Source: Rhodobacter sp. (GTDB lineage: Bacteria; Pseudomonadota; Alphaproteobacteria; Rhodobacterales; Rhodobacteraceae). From it: a stretch of 48,615 nt of DNA. Numbering within the stretch: the stretch's first letter is position 1; each line of letters begins with the position of its first letter. Shown in pieces: positions 16,535 through 23,787 of the stretch. Both the position numbers and the translations under genes were made by a program. The stretch lies in assembly GCA_022340385.1 (NCBI GenBank), contig JAJDOB010000012.1, positions 1 through 48,615 of the forward strand. The letters run 5' to 3'. The notes below the pieces were generated by a model. The model was not told where the DNA came from, searched no databases, and was given only the letters and a program-made list of their open reading frames with translations.

Positions 16535-18184
16535 TTAACGCTGAACTACTTTCCAGTCCGGGTGAATCCAGGGTCTGTCATTGGCCGCAGACAGGGGTGC
16601 GCGCCCCAGAATATGGTCTGACGCCTTCTCTCCGACCATGATCGAGGGGCCGTTCAGATTGCCATTGGTGATCTGCGGAAAGATCGAACTGTCGGCCACC
16701 CGCAAACCGTCGACCCCGATCACCCGGCATTCGGCATCGACCACCGCCATCGGATCGCCGCGCCGGCCCATCCGCGCCGTGCCGCAGGGATGATAGGCGC
16801 TTTCGGCATGCTCGCGAACCGCCTGATCCAGTTCGTCGTCGCTTTGCAGATCCGCGCCGGGTTGCAGTTCCGCGCCGGCAAATTCTGCAAAGGCCTCTTG
16901 CGCGAAAATCTCTCGGGTCAGGCGGATGCAGGCGCGAAACTCCTGCCAGTCGTCGGGGTGGCTCATATATTTGAACCGGATCAGCGGCGCGTCCGCCGGG
17001 TCGGCAGAGCGCAGGCTGACCGCGCCCCGCGATTTTGACCGCATCGGCCCGACATGGGCCTGGAACCCGTGCCCCTCGGGGGCGACCGTCCCGTCATAGC
17101 GCACCGCAATCGGCAGGAAATGAAACTGGATATCGGGATAATCCACACCCGCGCGCGACCGGATGAAGCCGCAGCTTTCGAACTGGTTCGATGCGCCCAG
17201 CCCGCCGCCGGTGAAAAGCCACTGCGCGCCGACCATGGCTTTTCCAAGAATATTCCAGTAATTATAAAGACTTACAGGCTTTTTTGCCTTCATCTGAACG
17301 TACAGCTCCAGATGGTCCTGCAGGTTCGCGCCAACGCCGGGCCGGTCGGCAATCACCGTGATCCCCTGCGCGGCCAGATCGGCCGCAGGCCCGATTCCCG
17401 ACAACATCAGCAATTTCGGAGAGTTGATCGACGAGGCCGCAAGGATGACCTCGCGGCGCGCACGGATCACCTCGGTGACTCCGCCCCGGCGCACCGAGAC
17501 CCCGACCGCGCGCCCCTCTTCGATCACCACGCGTTCGGCCAGCGCGCGCACAAGGCTGCAATTGGCGCGCTTCAGCGCCGGTCTCAGATAGGCGTTGGCA
17601 GCCGACCAGCGCCGCCCGCGCCAGATCGTGGCGTCCATCGGGCCAAAACCTTCCTGCTGTTCGCCATTGTAATCGGCGGTTGCCGGGTATCCGGCCTGCT
17701 GCCCGGCCCTGACGAAGGCCTGCGTCAGCGGGTTGGTCCGCGGTCCCCGGCTGATATGCAGCGGCCCGTCATGGCCGCGCCAGCCATTGTCTCCGGGTCC
17801 GTGCCAATGTTCCATCCGCCGAAAATACGGCAGCACGTCGCCATAGCCCCAGCCGGTGGCGCCCATCTCGGCCCAGGTGTCGAAATCGCGCGCATGGCCG
17901 CGCACATAGACCATGCCGTTGATGCTGGACGACCCGCCGATCACCTTGCCGCGCGGGCAGGCCAGCCGGCGATTGCCCAGATGCGGCTCTGGTTCGGACC
18001 TATAGCCCCAGTCGTAGCGCGCCATGTTCATCGGATAGCTCAGCGCGCCGGGCATCTGGATGAACGGTCCCGCGTCGCTGCCGCCATGTTCGACGACCAG
18101 CACGGAAACCCCCGCCTCTGCCAGCCGGCACGCCATCGCGCAGCCCGCCGACCCCGCGCCGACGATAACGAAATCCGCCTCCAT
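16535..18184 (-). CDS. betA: Choline dehydrogenase (GMC oxidoreductase)
   Basis: 549 residues, close to the 556 of E. coli BetA. The FAD-binding GAGSAG motif is at 9-14, the GMC signature '[21 protein letters not shown]' around 77-97, and the catalytic pair is His465 (HPCGTARMG) and Asn509 (NGNLN), matching the His/Asn pair of choline oxidase. '[15 protein letters not shown]' is a BetA-like stretch. It oxidises choline to betaine aldehyde for osmoprotection or for use as carbon and nitrogen. The stop of the GST-like gene abuts its ATG, and betI is upstream in the same direction. Betaine aldehyde dehydrogenase (betB) is not in the window. Confidence 0.88.
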
Positions 18185-18832
18185 TCAGGCGCCATCCGCG
18201 ATCAGGGGCGTGAAATCCACCATGACGTGCCGGATATAGGCGGGCCGCCCGGAAAGACGCCGGTAATACGCTTCGATATTGGGGCGCGGGCGGCGGGGAA
18301 CGTCGATGGTGAACCAGCGGAACAGGACATGGCCGATAACGATATCGGCCGCAGTCAGGTCGCTGCCAGTGACGAATTCCCGTCCCGAAAGCTGATCTTC
18401 CAGGATGTCGAGGTGCTGTTCGAACGCGGCAATCGCGCGGGCCAGCGCGGCCTCGTCGCGGTCGCTGGCGGCAGTGCGCACCCGTGGCCAGAAAATCGGC
18501 ACGGTGAAGGCCTGGCTCAGTTCGTTCTTGCCCCATTCGGCCCACATGTCGACGCGCGCGCGCGCGCCCGGATCGGCGGGCCAGAACGCGCCGCCATCGC
18601 CATAGCGCGCCGCCAGGTAGCGCAGGATCGCACAGCTTTCCCAGACCACCAGATCGCCGTCGCGCAGCACCGGCACCCGCCCGCGCGGGTTCATCGCCCG
18701 GAACTCTGGTGTGTCGGTTCCGCCAAAGATGTGACCATAGTCAAGCCGCTCATGCGCAAGCCCGATCTCGCCCACCGCCCACATCACCAGTTGCACGTTG
18801 GACGAGGTCGCCCGTCCGTAAATTGTCAGCAT
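18185..18832 (-). CDS. Glutathione S-transferase family protein
   Basis: 215 residues. The thioredoxin-like N-terminal domain contains MLTIYGRATSSNVQLVMWAVGEIG, the glutathione-binding cis-proline motif RGRVPVLRDGDLVVWESCAIL and then an all-helical domain ('DLTAADIVIGHVLFRWFTID' is the N-capping motif). A serine rather than tyrosine probably activates the thiol (Ser10 or Ser11). It sits between betI and betA with its stop directly before the betA ATG, an unusual place. A role in choline metabolism is not established; it could detoxify betaine aldehyde adducts, but that is speculation. Confidence 0.88.
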   Translation of the reverse strand: MLTIYGRATSSNVQLVMWAVGEIGLAHERLDYGHIFGGTDTPEFRAMNPRGRVPVLRDGDLVVWESCAILRYLAARYGDGGAFWPADPGARARVDMWAEWGKNELSQAFTVPIFWPRVRTAASDRDEAALARAIAAFEQHLDILEDQLSGREFVTGSDLTAADIVIGHVLFRWFTIDVPRRPRPNIEAYYRRLSGRPAYIRHVMVDFTPLIADGA

Positions 18833-18909: not shown

Positions 18910-19497
18910 TCAACCCGCATCGCGCCCTCCGATCAACAGATCCGCGACCCGCAGAACCCGGTCGCGCGCCGCACCGGGCTGTTCCGGCCCGCGCCCCAGG
19001 GCGGCGCGGATGTAATGCCCGTCTATCAGCGCCGCCAGCGTATCCGCCGCCTCCGGCGCCCCGGCCGGCATCAGCGGGCGCAGCGCATGGACCAGGTTGG
19101 ACCGCAACCGCCGCTGATAGACATCCAGCAGCCGCTGCGCCTCGGGCGACTGATGCGCCTGCACGTAGAAATTCAGCCACGCGCTGACCACCGGGCGGCG
19201 AAACTGGCCGTCGTCGAAACTGGCCTGCACGATCGCCTCAAGCCGCGCCCGCGCGGTCTGCGCCTGCGCCAGGGCATCGCGTACGGCAGCGCCGTACAGC
19301 GTCAGGATATGCCGCATCGCGGCCAGGAATATCTGGTCCTTCGCGCCGAAATAGTGATGCGCCAGCGCCGGCGACATGCCCGCGCGCGCCGCAATCTGGC
19401 CGACCGTGACATCCAGCGAACCGGCCTGCCCGATGCAGTCAATCGTCGCTTCCACCAGCGCCGCACGACGCAGCGGTTCCATCCCAAGTTTCGGCAT
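18910..19497 (-). CDS. betI: BetI-type TetR repressor of choline oxidation
   Basis: 195 residues, as in known BetI. The N-terminus MPKLGMEPLRRAALVEATI is the BetI signature, and the helix-turn-helix is 'VGQIAARAGMSPALAHHYFG' (about 31-50). Known BetI proteins repress bet genes and release DNA when choline is present. It heads the operon betI, GST-like gene, betA. A symmetric TTGAT-N6-ATCAA site lies just upstream of its start and is the likely operator. Identification rests on sequence and the betA neighbour. Confidence 0.87.
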   Translation of the reverse strand: MPKLGMEPLRRAALVEATIDCIGQAGSLDVTVGQIAARAGMSPALAHHYFGAKDQIFLAAMRHILTLYGAAVRDALAQAQTARARLEAIVQASFDDGQFRRPVVSAWLNFYVQAHQSPEAQRLLDVYQRRLRSNLVHALRPLMPAGAPEAADTLAALIDGHYIRAALGRGPEQPGAARDRVLRVADLLIGGRDAG

Positions 19498-19582: not shown

Positions 19583-19620
19583 GGAACCGGCAACCGGTTT
19601 TCGGATTGCGCTCTAGCGCA
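19583..19620. repeat. Dispersed palindromic repeat, copy A
   Basis: Contains TTTTCGGATTGCGCT followed by CTAG, and imperfect self-complementary halves (GAACCGG/CCGGTT). A related sequence in the opposite orientation occurs at 44941-44976. It overlaps the stop codon of the DUF1036 gene. It belongs to the kind of short intergenic palindromic repeat common in alphaproteobacteria. Confidence 0.5.
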
Positions 19621-20755
19621 GCTTTCGAAACTGCATCGCCGCCCCGCCCGCCACCGGGTCAAGTTGCAAAGAGCGGCCATCGGCCTTCACCACCCGATAG
19701 CATTTGGGTTGGCGGTCGCGCAGCGAAGTCTGGAACAGCACCGGCCCTTCGCCGCGCAGACCGTCGCACCGCCGGGCCAGCCGCAGGAACCGGGTCAGGC
19801 GAAAGACGCCGTCATAGCGCACATACATTTCCGAACCGCGAATGGTGATCTCGGACTTGGGGTCCTGCACCGACACCCAGTCGCCCTGAAGCGTCCGGCG
19901 CAGGTGCATCATCGCATCGTCGTCGCGCCGCGGCCTGACTTCGCGCAGCACCACCGCGGCATGCAGGCGGCTGCGGTCGGCCTCGTCCCCGACAATCGTT
20001 ACCGGCGCGTTCAGGTCCATGTCTTCCAGCGTGTACATCAGTTCGGTGTCGGTCGGCCCCTTGTAATAGGCGCGCAGCTTGACCCCGTCGGCGTGAAACC
20101 CGCAATAGGCGCGCCCGTCTTCCAGCTCGCAGCCCTGGAACAGCGCGTCGACCTCGAAGGGTTTGCCGTGGCGGCCGGCGGGCTGGTTGGTGGTCAGCGC
20201 CGCCTCGTCGATCGCGATCACCGGCACCTCGGGCGATTCCGTCATGGTCTGCATCGCCACGTCGGCGCCATCCTCTTCGCCGCCGCCCGGCCCCTTGGCG
20301 CCCAGACCGCCCCCCGGCGGTGTGGTTTCGACAAGCGTCAGGGTAAAAGCGGTCGCGGTCTCGCCGGTGTCGATCTCGCGGAATTCGGTCCTGACATAGC
20401 CGCGTGCATCACAATCGGTATCGCCGATGATGGTGAATTCGGCCTTCTGCGTACAGAATCCATAGTCCTGCCCGCGAAATCCGCCACCCGCGCTGTCGGC
20501 ATAGTAATAGTAATAGCGCTTGGTCAGATCACCGCCGACAAGGACCGAGCATTTGCCCGGCTCGATGTTCCACCAGCCTTCCGAGGTCCAGTCGGTGTCG
20601 CCCTTGTAGCCGATGGCGACGCTTTGCATCTGTTCCGTGTTGTTGCAGATCTCCAGCCCGGCATCCGCCGATCCGGCCAGCACAAGACCCAGAAGCCCCG
20701 CAATTACCCATGCCCGCAACGTTGCAACCCTTTCAATCGCGCCCGGCAGGATCAT
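19613..20755 (-). CDS. Secreted single-DUF1036 protein with extra C-terminal domain
   Basis: 380 residues. A signal peptide ends at about residue 32 (AGSADA). Residues 33-145 are one DUF1036 domain: GLEICNNTEQMQSVAIGYKG, DWTSEGWWNIEPGKC, RYYYYYADSAGGGF, YGFCTQKAEFTIIGD, CDARGYVRTEFREIDTG. The four conserved cysteines suggest two disulfides in the periplasm. A glycine/acidic linker follows. Residues about 180-380 form a second region with its own cysteines (QGCELEDGRAYCGFH, ARRCDGL, PKCYRV) and 'LQGDWVSVQDPKSEITIRGSEMYVRYDG', which looks like a lipocalin- or META-like beta sheet; that is a guess. It follows the four-domain DUF1036 gene by 72 bases, so it is likely the second gene of an operon. 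An in-frame TTG downstream is a possible alternative start. Function unknown. Confidence 0.85.
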   Translation of the reverse strand: MILPGAIERVATLRAWVIAGLLGLVLAGSADAGLEICNNTEQMQSVAIGYKGDTDWTSEGWWNIEPGKCSVLVGGDLTKRYYYYYADSAGGGFRGQDYGFCTQKAEFTIIGDTDCDARGYVRTEFREIDTGETATAFTLTLVETTPPGGGLGAKGPGGGEEDGADVAMQTMTESPEVPVIAIDEAALTTNQPAGRHGKPFEVDALFQGCELEDGRAYCGFHADGVKLRAYYKGPTDTELMYTLEDMDLNAPVTIVGDEADRSRLHAAVVLREVRPRRDDDAMMHLRRTLQGDWVSVQDPKSEITIRGSEMYVRYDGVFRLTRFLRLARRCDGLRGEGPVLFQTSLRDRQPKCYRVVKADGRSLQLDPVAGGAAMQFRKLR

Positions 20756-20827
20756 CGCAGTCCCAGCCGGGAGGGTACAGCGATGGCCAGCCGCCGGCGG
20801 GCCATCGGTCCTTGTGTCCGGCCCCGG

Positions 20828-22762
20828 TCAGCCGCCGCGCGAACCGCCCCGGCGCGGCGGTTTCACCCGTGTCGGCGCCGGCTCGGGTTCCGGTTCGGGT
20901 TCAGGTTCCATCGAGGGTTCCGGCTCTGGCTCTGGTTCGGGTTCCATCGCGGGTTCCGGCTCCGGTTCAGACTCCATGATGGCCGCCGGTTCGTCCATGG
21001 CCTCGTTCATCCCGTCATCGTCGCCGCGCCGGTCAAAGTCGAAGCCACCGCTTTTGGAGGTCGTGTCGGTTTCCACACCGGTGACGCCGCTGGGTTCAGG
21101 CTCGGGCTCGGGTGCGGCTGCGTTTTCCGCCACGATGTGGAAGGTAAACATGCCCTCTTCACCGCCGGTGTCGATCTCGCGGAAATCCTCGCGGTCATAG
21201 CCCCGGCTTTCGCAATCGCTGTCGCCGACAATCGTGTATTCGGTCGGCGTCGTGCAGAAGAAATAGCTTTGCCCGGTGAACGGTCCGCCATCGACTTCGC
21301 TGCGGTAATAGACATAGCGGCGGTTCTTGCCATCCAGCGCCGGGGTAACGCAGGCCCCCGGATCGGCGACCCACCAGCCTTCGGATGTCCAGCCTTCGGC
21401 CCCTTCATAGCCGATCGAGATGCTGTGCGACTGGCTTGTATCGTTGCAGATTTCCAGACCCGCACCGACATCGGCGATATTGTCGATGGCAGTCACCGCG
21501 GTCTCGTTCACCGCGCGCTCGTCCGCCGGGTTTGCAGTCTCCGCCCCGGCGTTGCCCGGCGGAATCAGCGTCAGCGTGTAGGTGGTGATGCCCTGTCCGA
21601 CATTGATTTCACGGAAGGTTTCCTGGTCGTAGCCCCGCGCCTCGCAATCGGTGTCACCGACGATGGTGTAGGCCTCGGGCGTGGTGCAGAACGTGTAGTT
21701 CTCGCCATCGAAACTGCCGCCATCGACCTCGGCGCGGTAATAGTAATACTGCTTTTGCAGCGCGCCGGACAGGATGGTCGAGCAATCCTGCGGATCAATG
21801 TTCCACCAGCCTTCCGAGGTCCAGCCTTCGGCGCCTTCGTATCCCACCGACACGCTTTGTATGTCCGTCGTGTCGTTGCAGATTTTCAACCCCTCGCCCG
21901 GCGGCGGCGTCAGCGACGCGGCCGGCGCAGCGGTGGTCGGCGCGGTGGTGGCGGTCGGTGCCGTCGGCTTGCCTTGCGTGGTCCCCGCCGTGGCGACCAG
22001 CGTATAGGTGAACGTCTCGGCATCCGGACCGGTATCGATCTCGCGGAAATCCTCGTTGTCGTAACCGCGCGCTTCGCAATTCTTGTCGCCGACGATGGTA
22101 TAGGCCTCGGGCGTGGTGCAGAAGGAAAATCCGTTACCGGTGAAATCACCGCCGTCCACCTCGGCGCGGAAATAGTAATACCGCGTCTTCAGCTTGCCCG
22201 GCAGCGGCGTGACGCATTTGCCCGGGTCGGCATTCCACCAGCCTTCTGACACGAAGCCGTCTTTCGAATCTTCATAACCAACGGAAATGCTTTGCGTATT
22301 TTCCGTTTCGTTGCAGAATTTCAGGCCCAGATCGGCGCTGGATTGCGCTTGATCGGCGAAAGCCTGGGTCAGCCGATAAGTGTAATCCTTGGCCGTCTCG
22401 CCGGTGTCGATCTCGATGAAATCCTCGCGCTCGTAACCGCGATCTTCGCAGTTTTCATCGCCGACGATGGTATATTCCCGGGGCGTCGTGCAAAAATAGA
22501 AATTGCCGCCGGTGAAATTCCCGCCAGCGACTTCGGCACGCATATAGTAATAGCGCTTCTGAAGATCGCCTCCGACAACGGTGACGCATTCGCCGGGGTC
22601 GGTAACCCACCAGCCTTCCGATGTCCATTCGACCTCGCCCTTATAGCCGACCGAAATGCTTTGCACATCCTTGGAATCGTTGCATATTTTTAGGCCAGCC
22701 TGGGCGGAACCGGCGAAACAGACTGCGCTGGCCGCCAAAAAGAAACGCATAAAATATACCAT
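20828..22762 (-). CDS. Secreted protein with four tandem DUF1036 domains and a Pro-Glu repeat tail
   Basis: 644 residues from the ATG at 22762, which has a perfect GGAGGT site five bases upstream. The signal peptide is residues 1-22 (ending AGSAQA). Four DUF1036 repeats of about 110 residues follow: 23-135, 146-260, 291-400 and 435-544. Each begins GL(K/E)(I/F)CN, contains SEGWW, a Cys after the DPG-like turn, YYYxRAEVxGG or similar, FCTTPxxYTIVGD and CExRGYD. Four cysteines per repeat suggest two disulfides each. Linkers are Ala/Thr/Pro-rich (261-290) or acidic (401-434). The tail (545-644) has runs of EPEPEPEP and ends in a basic segment, RVKPPRRGGSRGG. DUF1036 proteins are usually single-domain and small; this array is unusual. 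No catalytic motif is evident; a structural, binding or surface role is inferred. The single-domain paralogue lies downstream. Confidence 0.9.
   Translation of the reverse strand: MVYFMRFFLAASAVCFAGSAQAGLKICNDSKDVQSISVGYKGEVEWTSEGWWVTDPGECVTVVGGDLQKRYYYMRAEVAGGNFTGGNFYFCTTPREYTIVGDENCEDRGYEREDFIEIDTGETAKDYTYRLTQAFADQAQSSADLGLKFCNETENTQSISVGYEDSKDGFVSEGWWNADPGKCVTPLPGKLKTRYYYFRAEVDGGDFTGNGFSFCTTPEAYTIVGDKNCEARGYDNEDFREIDTGPDAETFTYTLVATAGTTQGKPTAPTATTAPTTAAPAASLTPPPGEGLKICNDTTDIQSVSVGYEGAEGWTSEGWWNIDPQDCSTILSGALQKQYYYYRAEVDGGSFDGENYTFCTTPEAYTIVGDTDCEARGYDQETFREINVGQGITTYTLTLIPPGNAGAETANPADERAVNETAVTAIDNIADVGAGLEICNDTSQSHSISIGYEGAEGWTSEGWWVADPGACVTPALDGKNRRYVYYRSEVDGGPFTGQSYFFCTTPTEYTIVGDSDCESRGYDREDFREIDTGGEEGMFTFHIVAENAAAPEPEPEPSGVTGVETDTTSKSGGFDFDRRGDDDGMNEAMDEPAAIMESEPEPEPAMEPEPEPEPEPSMEPEPEPEPEPAPTRVKPPRRGGSRGG
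20881..20970. repeat. Hexanucleotide coding repeat (Pro-Glu tail)
   Basis: Imperfect six-base units (GGTTCC / GGCTCT / GGTTCG on the plus strand) encode the EPEPEP stretches of the four-domain DUF1036 protein. Blocks are separated by Met-containing breaks. Such in-frame hexamers can change number by slippage without a frameshift. Confidence 0.75.
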
Positions 22763-22875
22763 GATAACCTCCACTTCTCGGAAATAGTCTATGCGGGCAA
22801 AACGGATTCGGTAAAGGGGGCTGGCAACATTGGGGCCGCAATGCAGACCGTTTCGCGCAATACGCGACCGGCGCG

Positions 22876-23787
22876 TTACAGTTTCGCCTGCATCACCGCC
22901 GGCGTCAGCATGCGCCGCTTCAGCACCGCCTCGCGCCAGGTGATGAAGCTGACCGACGCCAGGATCAGCGTGCCGCCAAAGACGACCCAGTGGTCCACCG
23001 GTTCAGAGAATACGAACGCCCCCAGCATGACCGCCCACACCAATTGCAGGAACGTGACCGGCTGCGTCACCGAAATCGGCGCCGCCCGCAGCGCCAGCGT
23101 CATGGTGAAATGCCCCGCCGTCGCGAATGCCGCAACCAGCAACATCCAGGCCACTTCGGTGCCGCTGGGCGTAACCCAGACCGCCGCCGCAAACGGCGCA
23201 AGCCCCAGCGTCACGGTGATCGACAACCACCCCACGACAACCGCCGGGGCCACCCGGTCAGCCATGGTTTTCGCGATCAGGTAGGATCCGGCGAACAGGA
23301 ACCCGTTCGCCAGCATCGCCAGATGTCCGCTCGACACCTCGCGCACGCCCGGGCGCAGGATCACCAGCGCCCCCAACAGTGCCACCAGCACCGCCAGCAT
23401 TCGCCGCAGTGCCATGGTTTCCCCCAGAAACACGACCGCGCCGACGGTCACGAAAACCGGGGTCAGATAGCCCATCGACGTGACCTCGGCCAAGGGGATC
23501 TGGGTCATTGCGTAAAACCACAGCATGACGCCTATCGAATGCAGCAGGCCACGCAGCCCGAACAGCCTTATCGAACTTGCATCCAGCCCCGCGCGCCACA
23601 TCGGCCGCAACATCGGCAGCAGGAAAACCAGCCCCAGCGAATAGCGCAGAAACGCCGATTCCGGTGCCGGGATGTTGGATCCGACGTGTTTCACCGTCGC
23701 CGTTACCGCCACGAACAGCGCGCCCGTCAGCAGCATCCACAGGATGCCGACTACCGGACGCGCCGAACTGGTTTGAACTTCTGACAT
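22876..23787 (-). CDS. EamA/DMT family permease
   Basis: 303 residues, ten predicted membrane helices in two EamA halves. The first half has 'ILWMLLTGALFVAVTATVKHVG' and 'FLRYSLGLVFLLPML'. The end of the first repeat is 'PLAEVTSMGYLTPVFVTVGAVVFLGE', and the second repeat ends 'PVTFLQLVWAVMLGAFVFSEPVDHW'. These transporters move amino acids, nucleotide precursors or other metabolites; the substrate is unknown. It is on the same strand as the gene at 23849, 61 bases apart. Confidence 0.9.
   Translation of the reverse strand: MSEVQTSSARPVVGILWMLLTGALFVAVTATVKHVGSNIPAPESAFLRYSLGLVFLLPMLRPMWRAGLDASSIRLFGLRGLLHSIGVMLWFYAMTQIPLAEVTSMGYLTPVFVTVGAVVFLGETMALRRMLAVLVALLGALVILRPGVREVSSGHLAMLANGFLFAGSYLIAKTMADRVAPAVVVGWLSITVTLGLAPFAAAVWVTPSGTEVAWMLLVAAFATAGHFTMTLALRAAPISVTQPVTFLQLVWAVMLGAFVFSEPVDHWVVFGGTLILASVSFITWREAVLKRRMLTPAVMQAKL

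Follow-up and report, generated by a model that had tools for sequence, protein, structure and literature searches.

What does an exported protein built from four tandem copies of DUF1036 (PF06282) do, given that this domain is widespread in Alphaproteobacteria and has no known function? The question is raised by a gene in the window, i.e. the whole stretch of 48,615 nucleotides analysed here, which is taken from a contig of Rhodobacter sp. Its features are listed in Table 1.

Table 1. Features of the array locus, in the direction of transcription
Feature	Position	Strand	Basis
EamA-type transporter gene, upstream; synteny kept in relatives whether or not they have the array	22876..23787	-	Pfam; synteny
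Ribosome-binding site GGAGG, 5 nt upstream of ATG 22762	22768..22772	-	sequence
Array gene; exported product of 644 aa with four DUF1036 copies, acidic linker and basic tail	20828..22762	-	ORF, sequence, Pfam
Signal peptide MVYFMRFFLAASAVCFAGSAQA	22697..22762	-	sequence reading; AQA|G cleavage inferred
DUF1036 copy 1	22364..22702	-	profile match
DUF1036 copy 2	21992..22327	-	profile match
DUF1036 copy 3	21563..21895	-	profile match
DUF1036 copy 4, terminal type	21128..21463	-	profile match, tree
Acidic Pro/Glu-rich disordered linker, net charge about -23	20861..21127	-	AF2 pLDDT mostly <60, composition
Conserved basic C-terminus PPRRGGSRGG	20831..20860	-	comparison with relatives, pattern scan of own genome
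Partner gene; exported product of 380 aa with DUF1036, OB-like and beta-barrel domains	19613..20755	-	ORF, Pfam, AF2
Partner's DUF1036	20327..20662	-	Pfam
Partner's OB-fold-like domain	19919..20206	-	AF2 model; Foldseek top matches contain OB folds, best E 1.4e-3
Partner's C-terminal all-beta, small barrel-like domain, basic here (+9)	19616..19918	-	AF2 model; charge
betI, choline-responsive repressor, downstream neighbour	18910..19497	-	NCBIfam TIGR03384 above cut-off; synteny
Glutathione S-transferase-like gene, between betI and betA	18185..18832	-	Pfam
betA, choline dehydrogenase	16535..18184	-	NCBIfam TIGR01810 above cut-off

The array gene and its DUF1036 copies

The array gene runs from an ATG at 22762 to a stop at 20828 on the minus strand, and its product begins, as read from the sequence, with a 22-residue Sec-type signal ending in AQA. 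The signals of its relatives are similar and likewise end in AQA. Comparison with the nearest relative (locus L045) gave a dN of 0.27 and a near-saturated dS of 1.48, and the resulting dN/dS of about 0.17-0.18 indicates a selected coding gene under purifying selection rather than a chance reading frame. An antisense open frame of 861 residues (19664-22249, plus strand) crosses the array and its partner gene, and similar antisense frames are found in all 12 array loci; codon composition (GC of 0.78/0.52/0.63 at the three positions) probably gives rise to them.

Pfam analysis returned four DUF1036 matches in the array protein (whole-protein E 1.2e-117), in agreement with the original prediction of four tandem domains in one exported protein. 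Against a gathering cut-off of 23, the PF06282 profile scored 387 bits for the array, 91-122 bits for each copy alone, and 118.9 bits for the partner. The copies, of about 110 residues each, are 56-62% identical to one another and 49-53% identical to the fifth DUF1036, that of the partner; no further DUF1036 was found in the source genome. All four carry SEGWW, FCTTP..YTIVGD and four cysteines as predicted, while the motif given as YYYxRAEV is in fact a YYY/YVYY..AEV/SEV stretch which in copy 4 reads YVYYRSEV. An alignment of 77 DUF1036 domains, every window copy included, shows CN, SxGWW, three further cysteines, IxG and G residues to be invariant, the four cysteines thus being common to all 77. 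The copies are irregularly spaced, with linkers of 12, 32 and 33 residues, and each has a net charge of -10 to -14. Weak Pfam matches (cNMP_binding, Trypan_PARP, Castor1_N and SAV0927-like) were all under their cut-offs, as was an NCBIfam match to SslE.

In a tree of 76 domains, constructed from 112 columns and containing many unresolved forks, a single clade (100/99) unites the last repeats of the Rhodobacterales stalk-type arrays, and there is a tendency for first and middle repeats to cluster by position as well. These position-wise clades point to an old array with differentiated positions, so that the modules are not interchangeable filler; they rule out a recent expansion. The predicted origin by internal duplication is therefore upheld, the duplication being old and position-specific. 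The Roseospira arrays represent a separate expansion. We consider it rather unlikely that copy number is near-neutral, the array being a by-product of duplication in which one module would suffice. Arrays do range from two to four copies, and locus L046 has undergone a very recent extra duplication of its last repeat, but the position-specific clades, the purifying selection and the conservation of the whole cassette argue otherwise. A phage or mobile origin was rejected: no relatives were found in viral contigs or phage records, and the plasmid matches are ordinary DUF1036 proteins, none of which covers 80% of the array.

Distribution of DUF1036 arrays

Among 397 genera of the family to which the window belongs, each represented by one genome, 70 contain DUF1036, seven have close tandem arrays and only four have four copies (G000, G064, G152 and G966; G127 has three, and G142 and G912 have two). 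A scan of genome contigs added Candidatus Rhodobacter lobularis, Pseudoruegeria, Psychromarinibacter, Maritimibacter and several metagenome-assembled genomes with three or four copies, together with Roseospira/Rhodospira arrays of two or three copies. Neither the survey nor the scan revealed an array of more than four. Beyond the family and the class surveyed, a control genome from the Cyanobacteria also matched DUF1036. In G912, two near-identical two-copy genes lie on different contigs (L140:3678-5342 and L141:4386-5240), and one of the two carries an additional C-terminal domain as a fusion.

The expectation that four-copy arrays are uncommon is borne out by these counts; the accompanying idea that DUF1036 proteins are mostly single-domain is only partly true, since 28 of 49 other carriers in a class-wide sample have two copies in one frame. 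In all 12 of the two-copy loci which were read, the copies are about 190 residues apart, and in seven of eight such proteins scanned a PG_binding_1 domain lies between them, above the Pfam cut-off. Two-copy DUF1036 proteins are thus common, and tandem arrays with three or four closely spaced copies are rare but recurrent. No description of DUF1036 arrays was found in the open-licence literature, and the four-copy array, a genuine, old and rare form of a known domain family, is apparently undescribed.

The partner gene, the tail and the neighbourhood

The strongest functional clue, overlooked by the original prediction, is a partner gene which begins 72 nt downstream of the array. It immediately follows the array in 11 of 12 Rhodobacterales-type array loci; locus L057 has a tailed array with no adjoining partner possessing OB and barrel domains. 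In Roseospira/Rhodospira (L055, L056 and L059), a single protein joins two or three DUF1036 copies to the C-terminal domain or domains of the partner, which constitutes a Rosetta-stone link. The AF2 model of the partner (46 sequences, pLDDT 87.6) comprises the DUF1036, a disordered linker, the OB-like domain and a small all-beta C-terminal domain; no Pfam family covers either of the last two. Several Maritimibacter genomes (L085, L075, L080 and L086) contain two adjoining solo-type partner genes (DUF1036 + OB + barrel) and no array.

The net charge of the barrel ranges from -2 to +9 in 11 array carriers versus -5 to -14 in 34 full-length solo homologs. The separation is complete, although the Mann-Whitney p of 8e-7 overstates independence, as the 11 array-linked partners make up one side of a single branch of the partner tree (80/96, not starred). 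The switch consequently represents one evolutionary event, not eleven, and many independent events are ruled out. In the fused proteins the barrel carries -4 to -10. The acidity of the array copies and of the linker, set beside a basic barrel, suggests electrostatic pairing of the two proteins.

Beyond copy 4 the array protein continues for 99 residues, ending in PRRGGSRGG, much as the predicted tail of about 100 residues with EP repeats and a basic end. Without its last nine residues this tail is 31% D/E and 22% P, with 17 EP steps. The corresponding region in 11 stalk-type arrays spans 67-140 residues, with 19-42% D/E and 1 to 17 EP steps. The idea of a stiff EP stalk accordingly fits this strain and its close kin, but the EP repeats are not conserved and the linkers of other relatives are D/T/E-rich disorder; a linker motif of FDF type is also present in most stalk-type arrays. 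Despite linker divergence, 10 of the 11 retain RRGGSRG(G) or a near match (RRGGTRGG, RRGSTRGS), the exception being L048 with RAGGSRLR. The codons of the kept tail show synonymous changes. Such conservation supports the view that the basic end is functionally important. A role for RRGGSRGG as a general sorting signal was rejected, since a pattern scan of the source genome found one clear gene end, that of the array (the other four matches were judged from the bases, not traced to genes).

Array-less relatives (e.g. L064, L066, L067 and L073) keep the order EamA - partner - betI - betA, or the same with choVW between, which makes the array gene the only addition at an old locus, inserted between EamA and the partner. 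The betI, betA, choW or choV genes adjoin the cassette in seven of 12 array loci, with the same linkage around the solo partner in nine array-less loci; choXWV, betI and betA were identified through NCBIfam equivalogs. The glutathione S-transferase-like gene also adjoins the cassette in L045 and precedes betA in L047. In Maritimibacter loci (L053:9065-12534 and L052:8995-10029), an unassigned protein (MPLFDFQTT...FTADGVKFTVSF) is present as one to three tandem paralogs between the cassette and choVW.

This linkage raises the thought that the array is part of choline/betaine osmoprotection, its aromatic-rich modules binding choline-type head groups or sensing envelope stress and the genes being expressed with betI-betA, which we consider unlikely. 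The conserved SEGWW and YYYY aromatics could form a putative cage, but the gene order is old and may be merely inherited, and array-specific linkage is ruled out by the solo-partner loci. Furthermore, the examined stretches of L048, L049, L051 and L054 contain no choline gene, and that of L045 only the glutathione S-transferase.

Possible function and comparison with known systems

The fold offers a second lead. No solved DUF1036 structure was found by sequence search, and the AF2 model of the array is weak (pLDDT 67.5, pTM 0.32), with ordered modules and disordered linkers between copies 2 and 3 and copies 3 and 4. In the model of the partner's DUF1036 there are nine strands, strand 1 comprising residues 2-7, and N7, which is invariant in the 77 domains, sits at its end. 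The VPS13 adaptor-binding (VAB) modules are nine-stranded sandwiches with an Asn conserved at the same place in every module (PMC8978259). In Foldseek the best PDB match of the weak array model was the VAB domain 7u8t (E 5e-8, prob 1.00), with TM-scores of only 0.15-0.17, and unrelated viral proteins reached similar E-values; neither a PDB sequence profile search nor a Pfam scan matched VAB sequences. Since the TM-scores are low, the array model weak and the viral E-values similar, we treat this likeness as a lead and not as membership. That the modules act as VAB domains do, as a string of nine-stranded sandwiches binding short peptide motifs of partner proteins (Pro-X-Pro peptides in the case of VAB), we regard as improbable for the same reasons. 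The PxP-rich tail as a conserved VAB-type ligand is ruled out, the EP/PxP steps being lost in relatives.

Least convincing is the surface-display array originally predicted, or an adhesin: the signal peptide, the repeated beta-sandwich modules and the long acidic tether would suit it, but we found no anchor domain among Pfam and NCBIfam matches above cut-off and no secretion-system signature, the repeats are position-specific and their number varies little (two to four copies), making it very unlikely.

The reading which we tentatively prefer is that the array is an exported, flexible and probably periplasmic, multivalent binding protein acting with its partner at the cell envelope. It would consist of four disulfide-bonded beta-sandwich DUF1036 modules on linkers, followed by the acidic disordered tether and the fixed basic tag RRGGSRGG. 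Through avidity, the modules may bind an envelope ligand that occurs in repeats, whether linked to peptidoglycan or some other component of the envelope. We infer an envelope ligand because other DUF1036 proteins sit in a peptidoglycan-binding context; Pfam detected no peptidoglycan-binding domain in the array or partner protein. The acidic tether and RRGGSRGG tag could then hold the partner via its last domain, the one turned basic in exactly this lineage. The lack of the tag in the fused Roseospira/Rhodospira proteins is consistent with such a docking role, as fused proteins would need none; on the other side, these proteins arose by a separate expansion, in which the tail may never have been present.

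A more elaborate version, which we offer as a long shot, is a two-part periplasmic machine in which VAB-like modules gather repeated envelope ligands (choline-type head groups perhaps, in view of the betI/betA/choXWV linkage) and RRGGSRGG docks with the charge-switched partner domain, an exported bacterial counterpart of a multi-module adaptor-binding scaffold.

One paper (PMC10687234) lists a DUF1036 member of Liberibacter asiaticus as a yeast-two-hybrid interaction hub, and as reportedly essential in L. crescens. The cassette described here provides three handles on DUF1036: the predicted fold, the dedicated partner gene with its matching shift in charge, and the short tail, which is conserved and can be deleted; the tail and the charge-matched partner are the most testable features of the array.

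Among known systems, VPS13 VAB (7u8t) is multi-module like the DUF1036 array; modules of both kinds have an invariant Asn, located at strand 1, and the nine-stranded beta-sandwich of VAB may be shared, nine strands being predicted for the partner's DUF1036. The array differs in being cysteine-containing and exported and, with a low TM-score and no sequence similarity detected, would share a resemblance of fold only. All five window domains are DUF1036 members far above the cut-off, and what sets the array apart from the family in general is that four copies follow closely in tandem and are succeeded by an acidic tether and the RRGGSRGG tail. The fused Roseospira/Rhodospira arrays, in which the partner's last domain joins two to three tandem copies, are one protein where the window has two, lack the tail and expanded separately in the tree. 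Finally, the DUF1036 - PG_binding_1 - DUF1036 proteins of other Alphaproteobacteria are, like the array, exported and have more than one DUF1036 per protein, but their two widely spaced copies flank PG_binding_1, which is absent from the window pair, and they have neither tether nor tail. A function for the array would probably also explain these two-copy peptidoglycan-binding relatives.
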